IMG/VR virus record: IMGVR_UViG_3300036820_000053
Span: 1 to 36,903 of that record
DNA length: 36,903 nucleotides
Strand: one strand, 5' to 3'
Origin: a virus
Below are positions 3,420-25,872 of the stretch, in pieces. Made by a program: the position numbers and the translations under genes. Below the pieces are notes generated by a model that worked only from the letters and a program-made list of their open reading frames with translations, had not been told where the DNA came from and made no database searches. Every line of letters begins with the position of its first letter. Positions within the stretch are counted from its first letter, which is position 1.

Positions 3420-5744
3420 CTATAATTGAGTCATACGGCCAGCTTTGCGAATCCACAAAACTTGAGCGTCAATTTGTACATCTTTTGTTTGTTCTTCCCC
3501 TGCCATCTGCGCATTGTTAAGCGTATATTCGAGAGTCAAAAAGTTAGCCCTAGTAGCGCAGAAAACACGTTGCCAAAACTTTGTTCCCTCCCTTGCAACA
3601 GCTAAATTAGAGGGGGAAGTTGGAATAATTGAGTTAAAAAATGAGTCAGCAGTTGCTGGGGAAACTCCATCAATTTCATTTTTCGGAAGTGTATTGGAGG
3701 CGTTCACATCGTCATAGTCTAAATAAACGTTTAAGGCTATGGCTCCGGGATTGTCAGGGCCTTGAGATTCCATTAAAACATCTAAATATCCCATCTGAAT
3801 ACTCTGGCCTTCATCCAGAAAGTTAAACTTTTTACTAGTGATATTGAAGTTCTCACGGATATTGATAAGGCCGCCACCTGTGTACATCCCAGAGGGTGTT
3901 GCGACAACGACATCGTCAAAGGCGTTTAAAGCGCTATTGTAAGTAAAAAGCTCAAACTTATTAGCGTCTATGACGACTATCCCAAAAATACCCCCATTAA
4001 GGCTTGAGTAAGGCGTATTTGCAGGTATTCCGCTTATTCCGATCACAAAATCGGTCTGCATATTGTGATTAGGACTAGTCACGGTTACAGTAGTTCCTTG
4101 AGTCAAATCCGAAATAAAAAGGCTCACATCATTGACGGTGAGCTGGTTTAGCTGCTCCACAAATCCTTGGTGATTGCCCCCGAGTATGAGCGGAGCCCCT
4201 TCAGGCTGTGAAATCCAATTGAAGGGAATATTTATCCACGCAATGGGTGTATTAAGCCATGTACGATATGCTTGAGCTTGATAGTTTCCCAAGGCCGTTA
4301 AAGAGTCGTTAAAGAGGGCCCAGCTGTCATTTTCGTAGTTATAGACTAGACGCTGATTAGGAAATATCCAGTCGTTAGGGTCTGTTGTTGCGTTGTAAGA
4401 AGCAGCTAGAGGGATTGTCCAGTACGCCAATCGATTTGGAAAGTCCCTAATACCTTGTACGCGAGAGACCCCATTATTAAGATCGTTAAATTGAAAAACA
4501 AAATCTGGAATCTTGATGTCAATACGATTTGATTTATAGCTGTCGCACTCTACAATCCCCTTGTCGCCTATCCCCACAAGCGATGTATCAAATTGTACAG
4601 CAGAAAACGTACTCTCCGCACCAAGTTCCGAATTAACTTTCTCAATTTGGAAGGGCGCAATGCTGCGCCCCGTATATCTAAGCTGCCAAGTAGACCGCTC
4701 ACAGTAGATAACAAGATTATCGCGAACAAAACCAACAGCAATAATATCTTCGCTAGTAGGTATATCAAGAAAGCCTCCCTGACCTCTTATGTCGTCACGC
4801 CAAGAGCCTCTTGCTGGCGGCCCTGCGGAATATGCTATAAATGGATTGCCAATGGTTGCCCAACGGATACGATTAGAATAATGTAGACTTGCGGCAGCTG
4901 TAGGGCCTTCCCAAGTATTAAATGTGACCATACGCCCACGGAATGGCAACATCGCGAGCCAATTAGTCAAGAAGTTAGTCGCATCAATCTGAGACCAAGC
5001 CGAAGGAAAGAAATCAACCCAGGTTGCCCCATCAGTTATACGTGGAGGATCTGCATTGCCTGCAAATTGGCCTGTGTTATTTGTTACCCAAAAAAGTTTA
5101 ACATTCGTGGAACCAAAGCCTGCTGCGATCGAACTCACCCAATAATTTGTTGAGAAAAAGAAGTCTGTCGCCGCAACAGATCCACCATGTTTGTTCCATG
5201 TGGTCATTGTAGCAGGTAAAAACTCCTCAAATTGCATTGTCGATTGATTAAAAATGTAAGCGTAGTCTTGATCAAAAAAAATAGTCCTATCCGCGGAACT
5301 GTTTTGAAGCTCTTGCAAGCGGATACCCATCACAGGAAGCCCTGGGAAGTACTGTATTGCTGTTGTTGTTTTTGATCCTGTGACGGTTAAGGCCCCAGTC
5401 GAACGATTAAGTGTGGCAGAACCTAGGCTATTTGTGCGTAACGTTACAGGGCTTGCTCCTCCCCAGTCTTGAAATACATCTGTACCGATTACAAAGGAAG
5501 CAATGCCTGACTGAATAGGCAGAGGCAAAATGTTAATTACAGCATTTCCAGCCCCATCTGTAATGCCTATATTTCGTTGGAGGCGGCCTAGCAGTTGAAA
5601 TCCTTTCTTGCGTTTAATACGCTCACGCCATACATAAGCGTTTTGTAAAACGGGATAAGCGTCATCTGGCAGTAAAAAATTTTCACGCTCCTGAACGAGC
5701 CCTGAACTCATTCCCGTGATTTTAAGAGGCGAATATCCTGCCAT
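3420..5744 (-). CDS. tail tube / head-tail connector protein, T7 gp12- or P22 gp10-like (774 aa)
   Basis: A 774-residue, beta-rich protein starting MAGYSPLKITG, with many Trp/Tyr/Asn residues and repeated strand-turn units such as EDIIAVGFVRDNLVIYCERSTWQLRYTG, typical of beta-propeller tail-tube or stopper proteins. Length and place right after the adaptor gene match T7 gp12 (about 790 residues). Residues about 560-630 carry a TVTSPNHNMQTDFVIGISG segment resembling domains in the 350- and 127-residue proteins. The start is the ATG that overlaps the TGA of the upstream gene (TGATG) with AGCAGG before it; a longer in-frame start 24 bases upstream would have no ribosome site. Confidence 0.85.
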   Translation of the reverse strand: MAGYSPLKITGMSSGLVQERENFLLPDDAYPVLQNAYVWRERIKRKKGFQLLGRLQRNIGITDGAGNAVINILPLPIQSGIASFVIGTDVFQDWGGASPVTLRTNSLGSATLNRSTGALTVTGSKTTTAIQYFPGLPVMGIRLQELQNSSADRTIFFDQDYAYIFNQSTMQFEEFLPATMTTWNKHGGSVAATDFFFSTNYWVSSIAAGFGSTNVKLFWVTNNTGQFAGNADPPRITDGATWVDFFPSAWSQIDATNFLTNWLAMLPFRGRMVTFNTWEGPTAAASLHYSNRIRWATIGNPFIAYSAGPPARGSWRDDIRGQGGFLDIPTSEDIIAVGFVRDNLVIYCERSTWQLRYTGRSIAPFQIEKVNSELGAESTFSAVQFDTSLVGIGDKGIVECDSYKSNRIDIKIPDFVFQFNDLNNGVSRVQGIRDFPNRLAYWTIPLAASYNATTDPNDWIFPNQRLVYNYENDSWALFNDSLTALGNYQAQAYRTWLNTPIAWINIPFNWISQPEGAPLILGGNHQGFVEQLNQLTVNDVSLFISDLTQGTTVTVTSPNHNMQTDFVIGISGIPANTPYSSLNGGIFGIVVIDANKFELFTYNSALNAFDDVVVATPSGMYTGGGLINIRENFNITSKKFNFLDEGQSIQMGYLDVLMESQGPDNPGAIALNVYLDYDDVNASNTLPKNEIDGVSPATADSFFNSIIPTSPSNLAVAREGTKFWQRVFCATRANFLTLEYTLNNAQMAGEEQTKDVQIDAQVLWIRKAGRMTQL

Positions 5745-20954: not shown

Positions 20955-21014
20955 CCCCTTAATCAAAAATAATCGCATTTCTCTAAAAATTCAGGAAGTG
21001 TTAAAAATAACATT

Positions 21015-21170
21015 ATGGGTAAAAAATACAGAGATCACCCTGACGAAAGGGCTAAAAGATCAAATGCAAATTGGCTGAAGGACAAGCCGAAGCAGAAGCC
21101 TGCGAATGATCATCCGTGGAAGGGGCCATGTATACGTAAGAGAGACACGACTTTTGAGTGTTTGGAATAA
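21015..21170 (+). CDS. small basic protein (51 aa), plus strand
   Basis: A 51-residue basic protein (MGKKYRDHPDERAKRSNANW, then LKDKPKQKPANDHPWKGPCI). Composition is clearly coding-like. The ribosome site is weak (AGGA about 17 bases upstream). Its last 119 bases are antisense to the 3' end of the homing-endonuclease-like gene, which suggests that gene ran into it after insertion or lost its own stop. Function unknown. Confidence 0.55.
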   Translation: MGKKYRDHPDERAKRSNANWLKDKPKQKPANDHPWKGPCIRKRDTTFECLE

Positions 21171-22236
21171 ATTTACAGCTAAAACACCTCTTTTGTCTTG
21201 AACTCACGGGAATATATTGTTGATTGCAGATCAAACAATTTTTTAAAGAATATTTTCGCCTCTTGCATCCATGATCAATTTCGACTCCCATTTTTTTTAA
21301 TCGCTTAGAAATTGTCTCATAAGTGGCTCCAGCGTGCTTTGCAATATCAGCTAAGGTTAATCCAGATTCGTAAAGGTTTTTTATTTCATCTTCAGGCAAC
21401 TTTTTTTTCCCAGAATCTCTATGTTTTTTTCTGAAAACAGATTCCTCATCTCCCCATCCCTTTTTAAGCCTGTCTAATATCGTATGATGAGAAGTTCCAG
21501 AAATTTCGCTCCACTCAAAAACATTTTTAGTTTCTCCTTTTATTGTAATTTTTTTTGCTAGCATCCTTCTTTGGTGTTCTTTGTGAGCAATAGCCTCACA
21601 ATTTTCTGGAGAAAATACAGTACACCCATCTTTTAAATAAATGATTCTATTTGATGAAACATTATTTTTTATACACCAATCATAAAAGTCTTTTGCTCCA
21701 TTTCTCCATAAATCACATACAATTACCCCTCTTCCTCCATATCTATGATAAGTTGGGTGTTCTGGATTGTAACAAGCCTGTAGTATCGTAGATCTCATGA
21801 TGTATATGCGAGTTTCAGAAGTCCCATGCATAGGCGGATAAAGTGTGGTATTAGCCCTGATTGACTTTTCTTTGCGACCCAAACACCCACAACTTAATGA
21901 TCTTCCTCTTCTGCCAAGAGCATACGTGGAGACTAACCCTTCATTCCCGCATTCACAAACGACTCTCCAAACTGTTTTACCGAGAGAATTTATACATCTT
22001 CCCAAGACAGACCAGCGTCCAAATTTTTTACCTGTTAAGTCAATACCCCGACGTCTCTCCAAAACGCATTCTTTGCATTCAAACGTGTCGCCTCTTTTAA
22101 AAGAGGCGTTTTGGCAAATAAACCTTCTTCCACAATCGCAGAGGCATTCCCATTTTGCCACTGGTTTTCTTTGGACAGAACGAAGAACGTTAATGCGTCC
22201 TATGCGCTTGCCAGTATAATCTGTATATTTTGCCAT
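21052..22236 (-). CDS. putative homing endonuclease-like protein with YGGRGI motif (394 aa)
   Basis: Residues about 5-55 and 65-125 are two similar modules: a TGK+.GR..VL start and paired C-x-C-G cysteines (CLCDCGRRF, CECGNEG, SCGC). Residues about 140-190 carry HGTSETRIYIMRSTILQACY and YHRYGGRGVIVCDLW, the core of a phage homing-type nuclease family. Next come a NUMOD-like segment (VFEWSEISGTSHHTILDRLK), a helix-turn-helix (LTLADIAKHAGATYETISKR) and a Cys finger. The last 28 residues look unlike the rest and are antisense to the 51-residue gene. It overlaps the upstream gene by TAATG. Confidence 0.75.
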   Translation of the reverse strand: MAKYTDYTGKRIGRINVLRSVQRKPVAKWECLCDCGRRFICQNASFKRGDTFECKECVLERRRGIDLTGKKFGRWSVLGRCINSLGKTVWRVVCECGNEGLVSTYALGRRGRSLSCGCLGRKEKSIRANTTLYPPMHGTSETRIYIMRSTILQACYNPEHPTYHRYGGRGVIVCDLWRNGAKDFYDWCIKNNVSSNRIIYLKDGCTVFSPENCEAIAHKEHQRRMLAKKITIKGETKNVFEWSEISGTSHHTILDRLKKGWGDEESVFRKKHRDSGKKKLPEDEIKNLYESGLTLADIAKHAGATYETISKRLKKMGVEIDHGCKRRKYSLKNCLICNQQYIPVSSRQKRCFSCKFIPNTQKSCLSYVYMAPSTDDHSQASASACPSANLHLIF

Positions 22237-22448
22237 TATTTTTTAGGTTTACCCGCCTCTGATAGACCTATCGCAATCGCCTGTTTCTTGTTCTTGGCTC
22301 TATGTCCAGAGCCACTATTAAGTGTTCCGCGGTTATATTCCTTCATCACGGCCTTTACTCTGTCTTTCGGCGGTAGAGCTTTACGTTTCTTAGCACCTGC
22401 GCCTAGTTTATCAGGGTGTTGCATGGCTTTCTTTATTGCGTTTGACAT
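22236..22448 (-). CDS. DUF6496-like small basic protein (70 aa)
   Basis: A 70-residue Lys-rich protein. The C-terminal half shows the family pattern: VKAVMKEYNRGTLNSGSGHR, then KNKKQAIAIGLSEAGK. Members are frequent in phages and plasmids and have no known function. GAGGACCC precedes the ATG. It lies between the ParB-like gene and the homing-endonuclease-like gene. Confidence 0.72.
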   Translation of the reverse strand: MSNAIKKAMQHPDKLGAGAKKRKALPPKDRVKAVMKEYNRGTLNSGSGHRAKNKKQAIAIGLSEAGKPKK

Positions 22449-22454
22449 GGGTCC

Positions 22455-22931
22455 TCAAAATTCATGTCCGCAGGATGGACAGGTTTTCATGTTTTTGATT
22501 TTTTCAGGTTCTTCTGCAGGTTCCTTTTCGCCTTCTTGACATATACCTAATAGTTGTTGCTCCGTAAATCCATACGACAAAAGATTTACCGCATCGAAAC
22601 TATTCGCGAGGCAATCCCAGTCCCATTCTCCTGTATTTAGATTGCTCCTGATCAAATATTCCTGAAATTCTTCGTCTGTCAATTTTCTTGATGGAACTCG
22701 AACGTCTATCATCTCTGATTGTCTTTTCAACTTCTTCAAGGCTTTAACACGCATATGACCAGCAATAATTGTATTATCGAGATCAATAGCGACAATCTCA
22801 ACATAATCAAATTTTTCCATTGACTTCAGCAGATGCTGAAACTGTTCTTTATCTATCTGACGAGGATTTTTAGAATATTCTTTTAGTTGGGAAACCTTTC
22901 TTTTTTCTGTGCTCCAAGTGAGTTTTTCCAT
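22455..22931 (-). CDS. ParB/Sulfiredoxin-fold nuclease-like protein (158 aa)
   Basis: The ParB N-terminal fold is recognisable: VSQLKEYSKNPRQIDKEQ at residues 13-30 and IIAGHMRVKALKKLKR at 55-70, which contain the nucleotide/DNA-contact motifs (NPR, GHMR). A helical middle follows (EEFQEYLIRSNLNTGEWDWD) and a C-terminal CPSCGHEF zinc knuckle half-site (Cys151, Cys154). Phage ParB-like proteins act as DNA-binding or nuclease/CTPase modules. Its 5' end has a divergent homologue, the truncated frame at 23451-23573, on the other side of the HNH gene. Confidence 0.8.
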   Translation of the reverse strand: MEKLTWSTEKRKVSQLKEYSKNPRQIDKEQFQHLLKSMEKFDYVEIVAIDLDNTIIAGHMRVKALKKLKRQSEMIDVRVPSRKLTDEEFQEYLIRSNLNTGEWDWDCLANSFDAVNLLSYGFTEQQLLGICQEGEKEPAEEPEKIKNMKTCPSCGHEF

Positions 22932-22960
22932 TGTCTTATTTAACCGTCTAGTGTATATTT
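22932..22960 (+). promoter_or_regulatory. promoter of the HNH endonuclease gene
   Basis: TTGTCT and TATATT are separated by exactly 17 bases, 26 bases ahead of the HNH start codon, in the 54-base divergent gap. Confidence 0.55.
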
Positions 22961-22985
22961 AAGATAACACAAACAAGGATTTCTT

Positions 22986-23489
22986 ATGGCCAAACCTGCC
23001 ACATTTATCAAATGTAAACTATGTCAAGAATTGTTTAAAAGGAAACGTTTAAGGGATAAATTTTGTTCTCAAAAATGTATGTGGAAAGGCCGACCAAAAC
23101 AAAAAGGGCGAGAGCCTATCAAGGTGCTAGTCCCATGCGATTTTTGCGGAAAACAAGTCACAAAATGCCCATGTCACATCAAAAAATCAGTAAATAAGAA
23201 ACATTATTGCAATACAGAATGCCGAAAATTTGCTATGAGAGATTCCAAAACGGTTTATGGATTTAAAAAAACTACAGGATCACCTTTAAACCCATATCGC
23301 CGATGTACAAAAGACGGAAAATTTGTTTACGAACATAGATGGGTCATGGAACAGGAAATTGGAAGGAAGCTAAAGAGGAGTGAACACGTACACCATATAA
23401 ATGGAGACCAAAAAGACAATAGGATTGATAATCTTCAACTCCTCTCTAGCTCAGAACACGCAAAAGCTCACCGTTTCAAGATGCTGTAG
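22986..23489 (+). CDS. HNH homing endonuclease (167 aa)
   Basis: The N-terminal half has two zinc-finger-like modules (CKLCQELF..FCSQKC and CDFCGKQV..YCNTEC, residues 10-80). The catalytic HNH domain is C-terminal: EHRWVMEQEIGRKL at 116-129, HHINGDQKDNRIDNLQ at 136-151 and EHAKAH at 157-162. It cuts DNA using one metal; such free-standing genes spread by homing. AAGGA lies six bases before the ATG. Its final codons and stop overlap an orphan ParB-like gene start on the other strand, so its insertion site was probably within a ParB-like gene. Confidence 0.9.
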   Translation: MAKPATFIKCKLCQELFKRKRLRDKFCSQKCMWKGRPKQKGREPIKVLVPCDFCGKQVTKCPCHIKKSVNKKHYCNTECRKFAMRDSKTVYGFKKTTGSPLNPYRRCTKDGKFVYEHRWVMEQEIGRKLKRSEHVHHINGDQKDNRIDNLQLLSSSEHAKAHRFKML

Positions 23490-23573
23490 CTGCTGTTTGT
23501 CTATTTGTCGGGGGTTTTTTGGGTGGTCTTTGAGCACTTTAAGGGGGAGGACTTCGAGATGCCAGTTGATCAT
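23451..23573 (-). pseudogene. truncated 5' end of a ParB-like gene
   Basis: A 40-codon frame with a good ribosome site (AGGT, five bases before the ATG). Residues 1-32 (MINWHLEVLPLKVLKDHPKN, PRQIDKQQLQHL) match residues about 3-34 of the intact ParB-like protein at 22455-22931: KNPRQIDK is identical, and QLQHL aligns with QFQHL. After CAGCATCT the homology stops and the frame runs into the antisense of the HNH gene. It reads as a gene cut at that point by arrival of the HNH module. Confidence 0.75.
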
Positions 23574-23669
23574 TTTTTACCTGTTAAATGAACTTTTTAT
23601 ATCACATAAAGGTTTTTATTTAGTGGTCTTTTTTGTTGTTGTTGTTGAAAATATTAGTGGAGGTGTCCG

Positions 23670-23951
23670 ATGGAGATACAGTTAGAGTTGCCAATGGCGC
23701 AGAGCCAAGGGCCAATGGCCGAAATGCAAGTGCAAATTGACGCGATGGCGGAGAGCATGGGAAAAGTACGCAGGAAGTTGTTCGCTAAAATGAGTGAGCT
23801 AGAACGTGCGTATTTGAGCATCGAGGCCGAAAATCATGATCTTAAGTGCGCTATTAGGGACATTAGAGGGGATAAAATGGAATGGCTGTATTGTCAAAAC
23901 GGATCACTGTTTGAAGAACCTCAAAAGTCAATCTCAATGAGGAGTGCGTAA
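23670..23951 (+). CDS. hypothetical coiled-coil protein (93 aa)
   Basis: A 93-residue protein rich in Met, Glu and Gln, with heptad-like helix over about residues 15-65 (MQVQIDAMAESMGKVRRKLF). GGAGGTG lies four bases before the ATG, and a (GTT)n microsatellite lies upstream of that. The stop overlaps the next start (TAATG). No family recognised. Confidence 0.72.
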   Translation: MEIQLELPMAQSQGPMAEMQVQIDAMAESMGKVRRKLFAKMSELERAYLSIEAENHDLKCAIRDIRGDKMEWLYCQNGSLFEEPQKSISMRSA

Positions 23952-24193
23952 TGGAAATAGATCTGACCAATAAAGAAAAGTATGAATTAAGCATACCAAA
24001 GCCATGCAATACAATCATTTTTTGCTTAAATGACACATGGATTATGCAAATCAAAGACGGAGAAGGAATCAAGTTCAACCGTGAAGAATTTCCAAATTAT
24101 GATATCCATGATTTCGCGAATGACGTTATCGAAATTTTAGAAAAAAAATTTACTGTGAAGTTTGATAAAAAAACACCGCCTTATGATCTTTAA
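23951..24193 (+). CDS. hypothetical protein (80 aa)
   Basis: An 80-residue alpha/beta protein (KPCNTIIFCLNDTWIMQIKD). GAGGAG lies about six bases before the ATG and the start overlaps the upstream stop, so the two form an operon. It converges tail to tail on the RusA-like gene with a four-base overlap. No family recognised. Confidence 0.72.
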   Translation: MEIDLTNKEKYELSIPKPCNTIIFCLNDTWIMQIKDGEGIKFNREEFPNYDIHDFANDVIEILEKKFTVKFDKKTPPYDL

Positions 24194-24571
24194 AAATCAA
24201 TCTCGATTCGCACGGCATAAATCGGGCTCTTTTCCTGCATGTAGACCCACGTAATCCTAGGATCTGCGTCCGCGCGACCTTTTAAAGTTCGCATTTTCCC
24301 TTTTGAGTCTATATAGGTCTTTTTGAGATCAGGAAGCATAAGCTCACTAATTTCATCCCTCAAAAATTTCATTGACATTACTAAATTGTCCGAGTCGAGT
24401 AGACGAGGAGATAATCGCGTAAAAGTGACTTGGCATGGGAATTCTAAACTGGTGATGTATTTCGCATAAGACAACCTTAAGAAGTGCTGCTGTTGCTTAT
24501 GTCTTTGCGATTTTACAGTCCAGTGCTCAGAACTATTTGCTTCGCTGACCGTTTTGATGTGTAGTATCCAT
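24190..24571 (-). pseudogene. RusA-like Holliday-junction resolvase gene with a 5' frameshift
   Basis: The long frame encodes SYAKYITSLEFPCQVTFTRL, SPRLLDSDNLVMSMKFLRDE and ADADPRITWVYMQEKSPIYA, the order and D-x-D-N motif of phage RusA-like proteins. It has no start codon except a late TTG (24474), yet homology-like sequence (VSEANSSEHWTVKSQRHK) continues upstream. GGAG seven bases before ATG at 24571 opens MDTTHQ in another frame. Deleting one A from the AAAA in CATCAAAACGG joins them to about 126 residues. Either the gene is broken, or slippage restores it, or only a short product from TTG is made. Confidence 0.6.
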
Positions 24572-24589
24572 GAGACTACTCCATATAAG

Positions 24590-24841
24590 TCACCTACCTT
24601 CCTTCATACCATAAACCTCTTCCATTGGTGCCGGGGTGAAGTACGCCCATTGATCAAAAGGGTGAGTAGTCGCTTTTCTGCCTTGATTTGACCGCCAAAA
24701 ATCAATCTTTGGAGCGATTTTTCGCTTACATTTTTCCGCGCAAGCCAATTCGGCTACTATATAACTCTGGCTGATATATCGCCAGACGACTACAAGCGCT
24801 CCATACTTAGGAGTTTCTTCTTGTAATATGTGATATGTCAT
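24590..24841 (-). CDS. hypothetical protein (83 aa)
   Basis: An 83-residue protein (MTYHILQEETPKYGALVVVW, RYISQSYIVAELACAEKCKR) with a helical AELACAEKCK stretch. The ATG overlaps the TGA of the initiator gene (ATGA), so it is coupled to it. Function unknown; position suggests a replication accessory role. Confidence 0.72.
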   Translation of the reverse strand: MTYHILQEETPKYGALVVVWRYISQSYIVAELACAEKCKRKIAPKIDFWRSNQGRKATTHPFDQWAYFTPAPMEEVYGMKEGR

Positions 24842-25872
24842 ATCCCTCGTTTGTCGATATAGAGCCGTAGCCTGTTTATACAATCTATGTCCCCCAGAGC
24901 AAGTGGTTGTCCTCCATTTTTCTTAATCAGCCAAATTCTGTCACTATAAACTTCAAAACAGTAAGGAATTAGATTGTCATGCGAAGGGTCGGACTTGTTA
25001 GGCCGCACGAAGTTTTTATGTTCCTGGGCATGAAGGCGCTCGGCCTCGGCTTTATGCTCTTGGATTCGTTCTACTATCGCCTCTTTGGCTTCTTCATTCG
25101 GCTTTGATTTAGAGGATGGCATTTCCTCGCGTTTCCAGCCCCCTACAATCGCGTTACGCAACGCGCCTATAGGATTAGACAGTGGCGTTCCTTTTTGCGC
25201 CTGGTGGGCCCTGTATTTTTCGAAAGCCAAAATGGCGTCCTTCAGGTGCGGGAGTGAGTACTTTAGGACTTCATCGAGCAGCTGCGGTGATAAATCGTAA
25301 CTCTTGAGGAGCTCGACCTTGAGAGAGGCATCTTCTGCAACAGCAGCAACAACAGCAGGGGCAGGCGTTGCGCTGTTGTTGTTGTATTGGGTATTTCCCT
25401 GGTCTTCTATTGTATTAGAGATTCCGCCGTTTGACGTATTGGATTCCGCCATTTGACGTAATCCATTCCGCTGTACAGCGGATTCCATTCCGTCATTTTG
25501 CGGAATGCGCGACATTTTTTTAATTCCATTGAAAGGCTTGATGATTTCTTGATCAAACACAGTATACCAAGTCGTACGGTCAAAAGCGTTTTTATTGAAA
25601 TTCCCCTTTATTAGTATTCCTAACTCAACTAGCTTCTTTAAAGCTTTTTGAACTGTATCTTCACTTAAATACCCCAAAAAATCAGCGATCTGCTTTTGAG
25701 TTTCATACATCCAATACTTGCCTTCTATCATCTCCGCATCCTTCTTTGAGGCATTGATTTGAAGCCAATAAATAATGTGAGAAAGGACGGCTGCGCAGTC
25801 TAATCCTAGATGGCGAGCGATACCTTGATTGATGGAGTGGGAGTGCTTAGAAAATAGGTCGTGTGGATTCAT
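24838..25872 (-). CDS. replication initiator protein with winged-helix N-terminus (344 aa)
   Basis: Residues about 1-110 form a winged helix typical of phage replication/DnaD-like initiators: SINQGIARHLGLDCAAVLSH, IIYWLQIN, then GKYWMYETQKQIADFLGYLS and KALKKLVELGIL. Next is a low-complexity Asn/Ser/Ala linker (about 125-185), within whose coding DNA lie four 22-bp iterons. The C-terminal part has LSNPIGALRNAIVGGWKREE, seen in initiators, and a basic charged region. It would bind the iterons and recruit host helicase, as lambda O does. The ATG with AGAGGA upstream is preferred to a TTG 27 bases earlier. Confidence 0.8.
   Translation of the reverse strand: MNPHDLFSKHSHSINQGIARHLGLDCAAVLSHIIYWLQINASKKDAEMIEGKYWMYETQKQIADFLGYLSEDTVQKALKKLVELGILIKGNFNKNAFDRTTWYTVFDQEIIKPFNGIKKMSRIPQNDGMESAVQRNGLRQMAESNTSNGGISNTIEDQGNTQYNNNSATPAPAVVAAVAEDASLKVELLKSYDLSPQLLDEVLKYSLPHLKDAILAFEKYRAHQAQKGTPLSNPIGALRNAIVGGWKREEMPSSKSKPNEEAKEAIVERIQEHKAEAERLHAQEHKNFVRPNKSDPSHDNLIPYCFEVYSDRIWLIKKNGGQPLALGDIDCINRLRLYIDKRGI
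25418..25505. repeat. four 22-bp iterons, candidate replication origin inside the initiator gene
   Basis: Four direct units of exactly 22 bp (25418-25439, 25440-25461, 25462-25483, 25484-25505) share an ATTCCG core and a second half such as TTTGACGTA. The third contains an 18-bp perfect palindrome ATCCGCTGTACAGCGGAT. Because 22 is not a multiple of three, the repeat shifts reading frame unit to unit, so selection acts on DNA. An A/T-rich run (ATTTTTTTAATT) follows at about 25515. This parallels the lambda ori in gene O. Confidence 0.75.

Follow-up and report, generated by a model that had tools for sequence, protein, structure and literature searches.

The DNA analyzed here (the window) is a 36,903-base virus record that carries a P22-type portal gene. 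At positions 22455–23573 it contains, consecutively, an intact ParB-like gene (minus strand), an HNH_3 endonuclease gene (plus strand), and, again on the minus strand, a short frame that resembles the start of a ParB gene and is called the stump below (Table 1). These three pieces had been recognized in an initial sequence-only reading, and their positions were confirmed in the window. The next gene, gene X, diverges from the ParB promoter region.

Table 1. Features of the HNH–ParB locus in the window.
Feature	Coordinates	Strand	Remarks
HNH_3 endonuclease gene, 167 aa	22986..23489	+	HNH motif EHVHHINGDQKDNRIDNLQLLSSSEHAKAH; L006 gene in the same place 63% identical
Leader between the divergent HNH and ParB starts, 54 bases	22932..22985	.	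homologous to the 53-base L006 leader
Foreign "type A" ParB N-domain, residues 1–102 of the intact gene	22626..22931	-	
Native "type B" tail, residues 103–158, CPSCGHEF end	22455..22625	-	
Stump (33 codons, MINWHLEVLPLKVLKDHPKNPRQIDKQQLQHLE) from the 5′ end of the resident type B ParB gene	23475..23573	-	
Native ParB promoter region, now feeding the stump only	23574..23669	-	motif ACTAAATAAA at 23615–23624
Gene X, coiled-coil-like	23670..23951	+	syntenic anchor for finding empty-site relatives

The HNH gene matches the Pfam HNH_3 profile (E = 3e-13) and many PHROG HNH families. It is encoded on the strand opposite to its host gene ParB and lies outside any intron or intein. An Rfam scan over positions 21000–25000 gave no match at E ≤ 1; thus, there is no sign of an intron, and a group I intron or other RNA element at this locus was rejected. 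Most probably, this is a free-standing homing-type endonuclease gene, with a putative ability to cut an HNH-free allele and to be copied into it.

Three collinear phage contigs are informative for the history of the locus: the window, G004 (37.8 kb, locus L006), and G001 (22.5 kb, locus L002). In L006, an HNH gene with the same HNH motif occupies the same place in the same orientation, and the ParB proteins are 72% identical. This phage also has a hybrid type A/B ParB gene and a native promoter region behind HNH, with the HNH stop abutting the native ribosome-binding region, and no stump is observed. In L002, a hybrid ParB gene of the same kind is found under the native promoter, its upstream region is unlike that of the window, and HNH is absent from the whole record.

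Further relatives were obtained by an alignment search with gene X, which yielded four additional phages, and then by using their ParB genes as queries, which yielded many more. An empty site was defined by a gene X match with E < 1e-9 opposite a type B ParB gene. In 15 contigs gene X is found opposite one type B ParB gene, and HNH was not found in the available flanks of these relatives. Hence, HNH is optional at the site, being present in L006 and absent from L002 and the 15 type B relatives, and the HNH unit was found in only two phages, the window and L006. The sequence-only reading had predicted that HNH-free relatives start like the stump, and all 15 gene X-linked relatives do so, with 48–76% similarity to it. 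An HNH-free relative with both ParB starts, which would speak against that reading, was sought among the relatives and not found. At the DNA level, the locus had no match in 50,697 phage records, and scans of genome contigs produced no HNH match and one distant ParB, in Spirosoma.

The intact ParB-like gene (22455–22931) matches the ParB N-domain profile phrog_620 (E = 9e-26) and no Pfam family at 0.01. As judged by sequence comparison, it is a mosaic, with a foreign type A front and a native type B tail joined in frame. Its N-domain shows 87% similarity to that of L006, 84% to that of L002, and about 40% to resident type B. Among the three hybrids, the N-domains are 81–87% alike, the tails 50–67%, and gene X 32–45%, whereas in type B pairs the similarities of the N-domain and the tail are about equal. 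The higher similarity of the type A N-domain could in part be due to stronger constraint.

The tails are too short for trees to be resolved, and the comparison was therefore based on bit scores, over 46 type A loci and 54 loci that are mostly type B. The tails of all three hybrids find their best matches among type B tails (75–97 bits versus 28–37 bits for type A), and the N-domain medians are reversed. The window tail scores highest (75 bits) against type B genes of related phages and no more than 37 bits against type A genes. The A-to-B breakpoint maps to residue 103 in the window, 100 in L006, and 102 in L002 (permutation p = 0.0014, 0.0002, and 0.0004, respectively). Synonymous sites are saturated, and therefore the transfer cannot be dated. 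The sequence-only reading took the intact gene for a hybrid whose new 5′ end came with HNH. Its hybrid nature and native rear part were borne out, and HNH and the new start have a common leader that recurs in L006; the foreign part, however, spans residues 1 to approximately 102, and not approximately 32. Most of what was considered the body of the gene is therefore foreign, and the expectation that an empty-site gene continues like this body holds for the tail only.

The architecture of ParB genes varies among the relatives. Some of them (L068, 3610–4887; L069, 2751–4019) carry the type B ParB domain as a fusion with a DNA methyltransferase; in others, as in the window gene at 22455–22931, it stands alone with a CPxCGHxF tail. 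In L002, the methyltransferase frame after ParB appears to be split into several reading frames. Locus L126 (179–640) likewise combines a type A ParB domain with a type B-like tail (53% to type A; 47% to the window tail over 59 aa); it is without a known HNH gene, and its upstream sequence leaves the contig.

The upstream regions distinguish the old ParB start from the new one. The 54-base leader of the window aligns with the 53-base leader of L006 with a score of 52, the maximum in 1000 dinucleotide shuffles being 37; it does not resemble the native promoter region of ParB in L002. An HNH-leader-type A unit is common to the window and L006. The motif (T)CAACTAAA(T/G)AAA precedes type B starts in L074 (L068 contig), L079 (L070 contig), L082, L083, and L085; in its strict form it is missing in several other type B relatives. 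The same motif is found upstream of the L002 ParB start, directly behind the L006 HNH stop, and, as CCACTAAATAAA, upstream of the stump, whereas neither the window nor L006 has it ahead of the intact ParB start. Similarity of the stump upstream region to that of L002 beats 1000 of 1000 dinucleotide shuffles, and that of the upstream region of the intact gene does not. The motif and the upstream similarity together indicate that in both HNH phages the native promoter region was stranded behind HNH, and ParB starts behind a new leader.

The resemblance between the stump and the intact N-terminus, noticed in the sequence-only reading, is well beyond chance: the first 32 residues align with a BLOSUM62 score of 89, the maximum in 5000 shuffles being 46. 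A search of the phage's own record recovers the same stump at E = 3e-6. Comparison with type B relatives (...KHLE in L068) extends the homology to codon 33 (GAA, 23475). Hence, the HNH stop and the last four HNH codons (F-K-M-L-stop) lie inside the stump, on the opposite strand, and the border is at about 23474/23475, approximately 14 bases within the HNH gene, rather than exactly at its stop codon as initially proposed. The shared CAGCATCT merely represents conserved codons Q-H-L.

The stump is identical to the L068 type B start MINWKLESIPIKELKDHPKNPRQINKEQLKHLE at 25 of 33 positions and to the intact start of the window at 16 of 33; because it is the type B starts that match, we consider it the old start of the resident type B gene. 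By codon position, the differences between the stump and L068 number 10/2/18, the same pattern as in functional type B pairs, suggesting that the stump was cut off recently relative to the divergence of the phages. Two other origins were considered and rejected. Neutral drift of an old start of the same gene disagrees with the placement of its changes at third codon positions, a pattern shared with type B genes that still work. A foreign stump with a native intact start, an idea based on L002 alone, was abandoned when the type B relatives turned up. In GenBank, tblastn with the 32-aa stump gave weak ParB matches in lactococcal phages only. A strict PKNPRQIDK pattern, used at the DNA level for stump-like starts, had no match; it is too strict, since the relatives read QINK or QIGK.

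A natural explanation, which we regard as reasonably probable, is that the HNH gene together with a replacement front part invaded a type B ParB gene, yielding the hybrid and the stump. According to this scenario, a free-standing homing-type HNH gene would have entered the resident gene, bringing along a new start codon behind a divergent leader and about 100 type A ParB codons. One end would have been joined in the stretch W/F-D-x-D-x-L-A-N, which types A and B have in common, at codons 100–103, producing a full-length hybrid read from the new leader. The other end would have been joined to the resident gene at codon 33, where there is little homology, leaving behind the native promoter region and the 33-codon stump, so that the last four HNH codons and the stop would be read from the other strand of the stump. 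Comparative sequence evidence documents the mosaic, the empty sites, the origin of the stump, the stranded native promoter, and the occurrence of the HNH-leader-type A unit in two phages. Cleavage of the type B gene by HNH presumably drove the transfer, the hybrid ParB is likely to be expressed and functional, and the divergent type A sequence may no longer be an HNH target, providing putative self-protection.

A more specific version is that HNH, the leader, and approximately 100 codons travel as a single mobile package; on invading a type B ParB gene, it would restart the cut gene from the leader of the package as a hybrid and remove the target sequence. We put this at somewhat less than an even chance. 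The hybrid of L002, without HNH and under the native promoter, demonstrates that the domain swap can exist apart from HNH. Hence, HNH is not needed to keep the hybrid and may not always have delivered it. The series L002, L006, window can be read as successive steps: a domain swap, entry of HNH at the ParB start, and transfer of the unit into a B-type phage. Alternatively, it can be read as one package, with HNH later lost in L002 and the stump later lost in L006. The differing tails and joins favor more than one event.

These observations also bear on a scenario in which mosaicism came first: a nuclease-free homologous exchange of A for B, as in L002, was followed by entry of HNH and the leader at the start, as in L006, and the window arose by general recombination with HNH as a passenger. 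The native promoter and the lack of HNH in L002 agree with it, as does the L006 HNH stop abutting the native ribosome-binding region, which a simple insertion at the start would give; L126 demonstrates that such swaps recur. General recombination, however, disfavors a join such as that at codon 33 of the window, inside type B coding sequence with little homology, and both HNH phages have the new start, while HNH occurs in none of the 15 type B phages. We consider this scenario rather unlikely, though it is the most serious competitor of invasion by HNH with a replacement front part.

Other explanations concern the window alone. The stump–HNH junction is observed in this single record, apparently an IMG/VR-type virus contig, and could in principle reflect a chimeric assembly of two related phages. 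This is highly improbable, as L006 independently contains HNH, the leader, and the hybrid, with the native promoter region behind HNH, and the two sides of the junction have no more than about 5 bases (TTGAA) in common, which would not suffice for an assembler to join them falsely. By inspection, the same TTGAA is also present in the L006 HNH end; it may have helped the join, but could be a chance coincidence. Nor is the stump likely to be a retained working short peptide or leader instead of debris, an option to which we assign very little weight. Its frame is open for 40 codons behind a native promoter region, and type B conserved positions are unviolated except for one conserved Glu, yet it has been lost entirely in L006 and its 33 residues cover only part of the ParB domain.

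The closest analogy to the favored invasion scenario is provided by mobile ORFs of fungal mitochondria that carry gene ends, described for atp6 of Allomyces macrogynus and for atp6, atp9, cox2, and nad3 of Glomus sp. (PMC3630166). These ORFs introduce a carboxy-terminus of foreign origin, and the native one stays behind (PMC3630166). Similarly, at the phage locus an endonuclease ORF is accompanied by a foreign gene part in frame with the native remainder, and the displaced native end lies beyond the endonuclease gene. The locus thus works like the fungal end-replacing elements but differs from them by type: the latter replace the carboxy-terminus and encode LAGLIDADG or GIY-YIG endonucleases in mitochondria (PMC3630166), whereas here the 5′ end, and hence the amino-terminus, is replaced, HNH_3 is on the opposite strand, and the new start has its own leader. 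In the open-access literature, we found no phage case of end replacement and no 5′ case with HNH. If the package reading is true, the locus is a 5′-end phage counterpart of the fungal elements. The locus exemplifies how a homing-type gene could interrupt a gene that is useful to the phage and yet not destroy it, and how genes of this sort can drive domain swapping in phages. Since the empty, half-way, and full states all exist in sequenced relatives, both the target and the immunity are directly testable.

Among phage systems, the seg and mob genes of T4-like phages are free-standing homing endonucleases, and it is documented that the flanks of phage homing endonucleases are co-converted on transfer (PMC2988022). 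Like them, the window carries an intron-free HNH gene adjoining its probable target gene. The seg and mob genes, however, are intergenic, and that account describes none that left a truncated gene start next to a replaced one (PMC2988022). In lactococcal Skunavirus phages, which are tailed, variable HNH genes are inserted in the early region, as in the window, and are thought to move flanking DNA; in the part of that account considered here, the remnants described are those of HNH genes, not of an entered host gene (PMC12724721).

The early region may attract HNH-type genes, since the window contains a second gene of HNH-type families on the minus strand at 21052–22236 (394 aa; phrog_374, E = 1e-42; phrog_3377, E = 2e-33), two genes past the hybrid ParB gene. 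Another HNH gene adjoining a ParB start is found in L016 (311–2084); it is a different HNH gene, 214 aa long, and overlaps on the same strand the start of a gene for a type A ParB-methyltransferase. In L006, a short HNH-like frame (4701–4934, 77 aa) immediately 3′ of the ParB gene is possibly a remnant of a further endonuclease gene.
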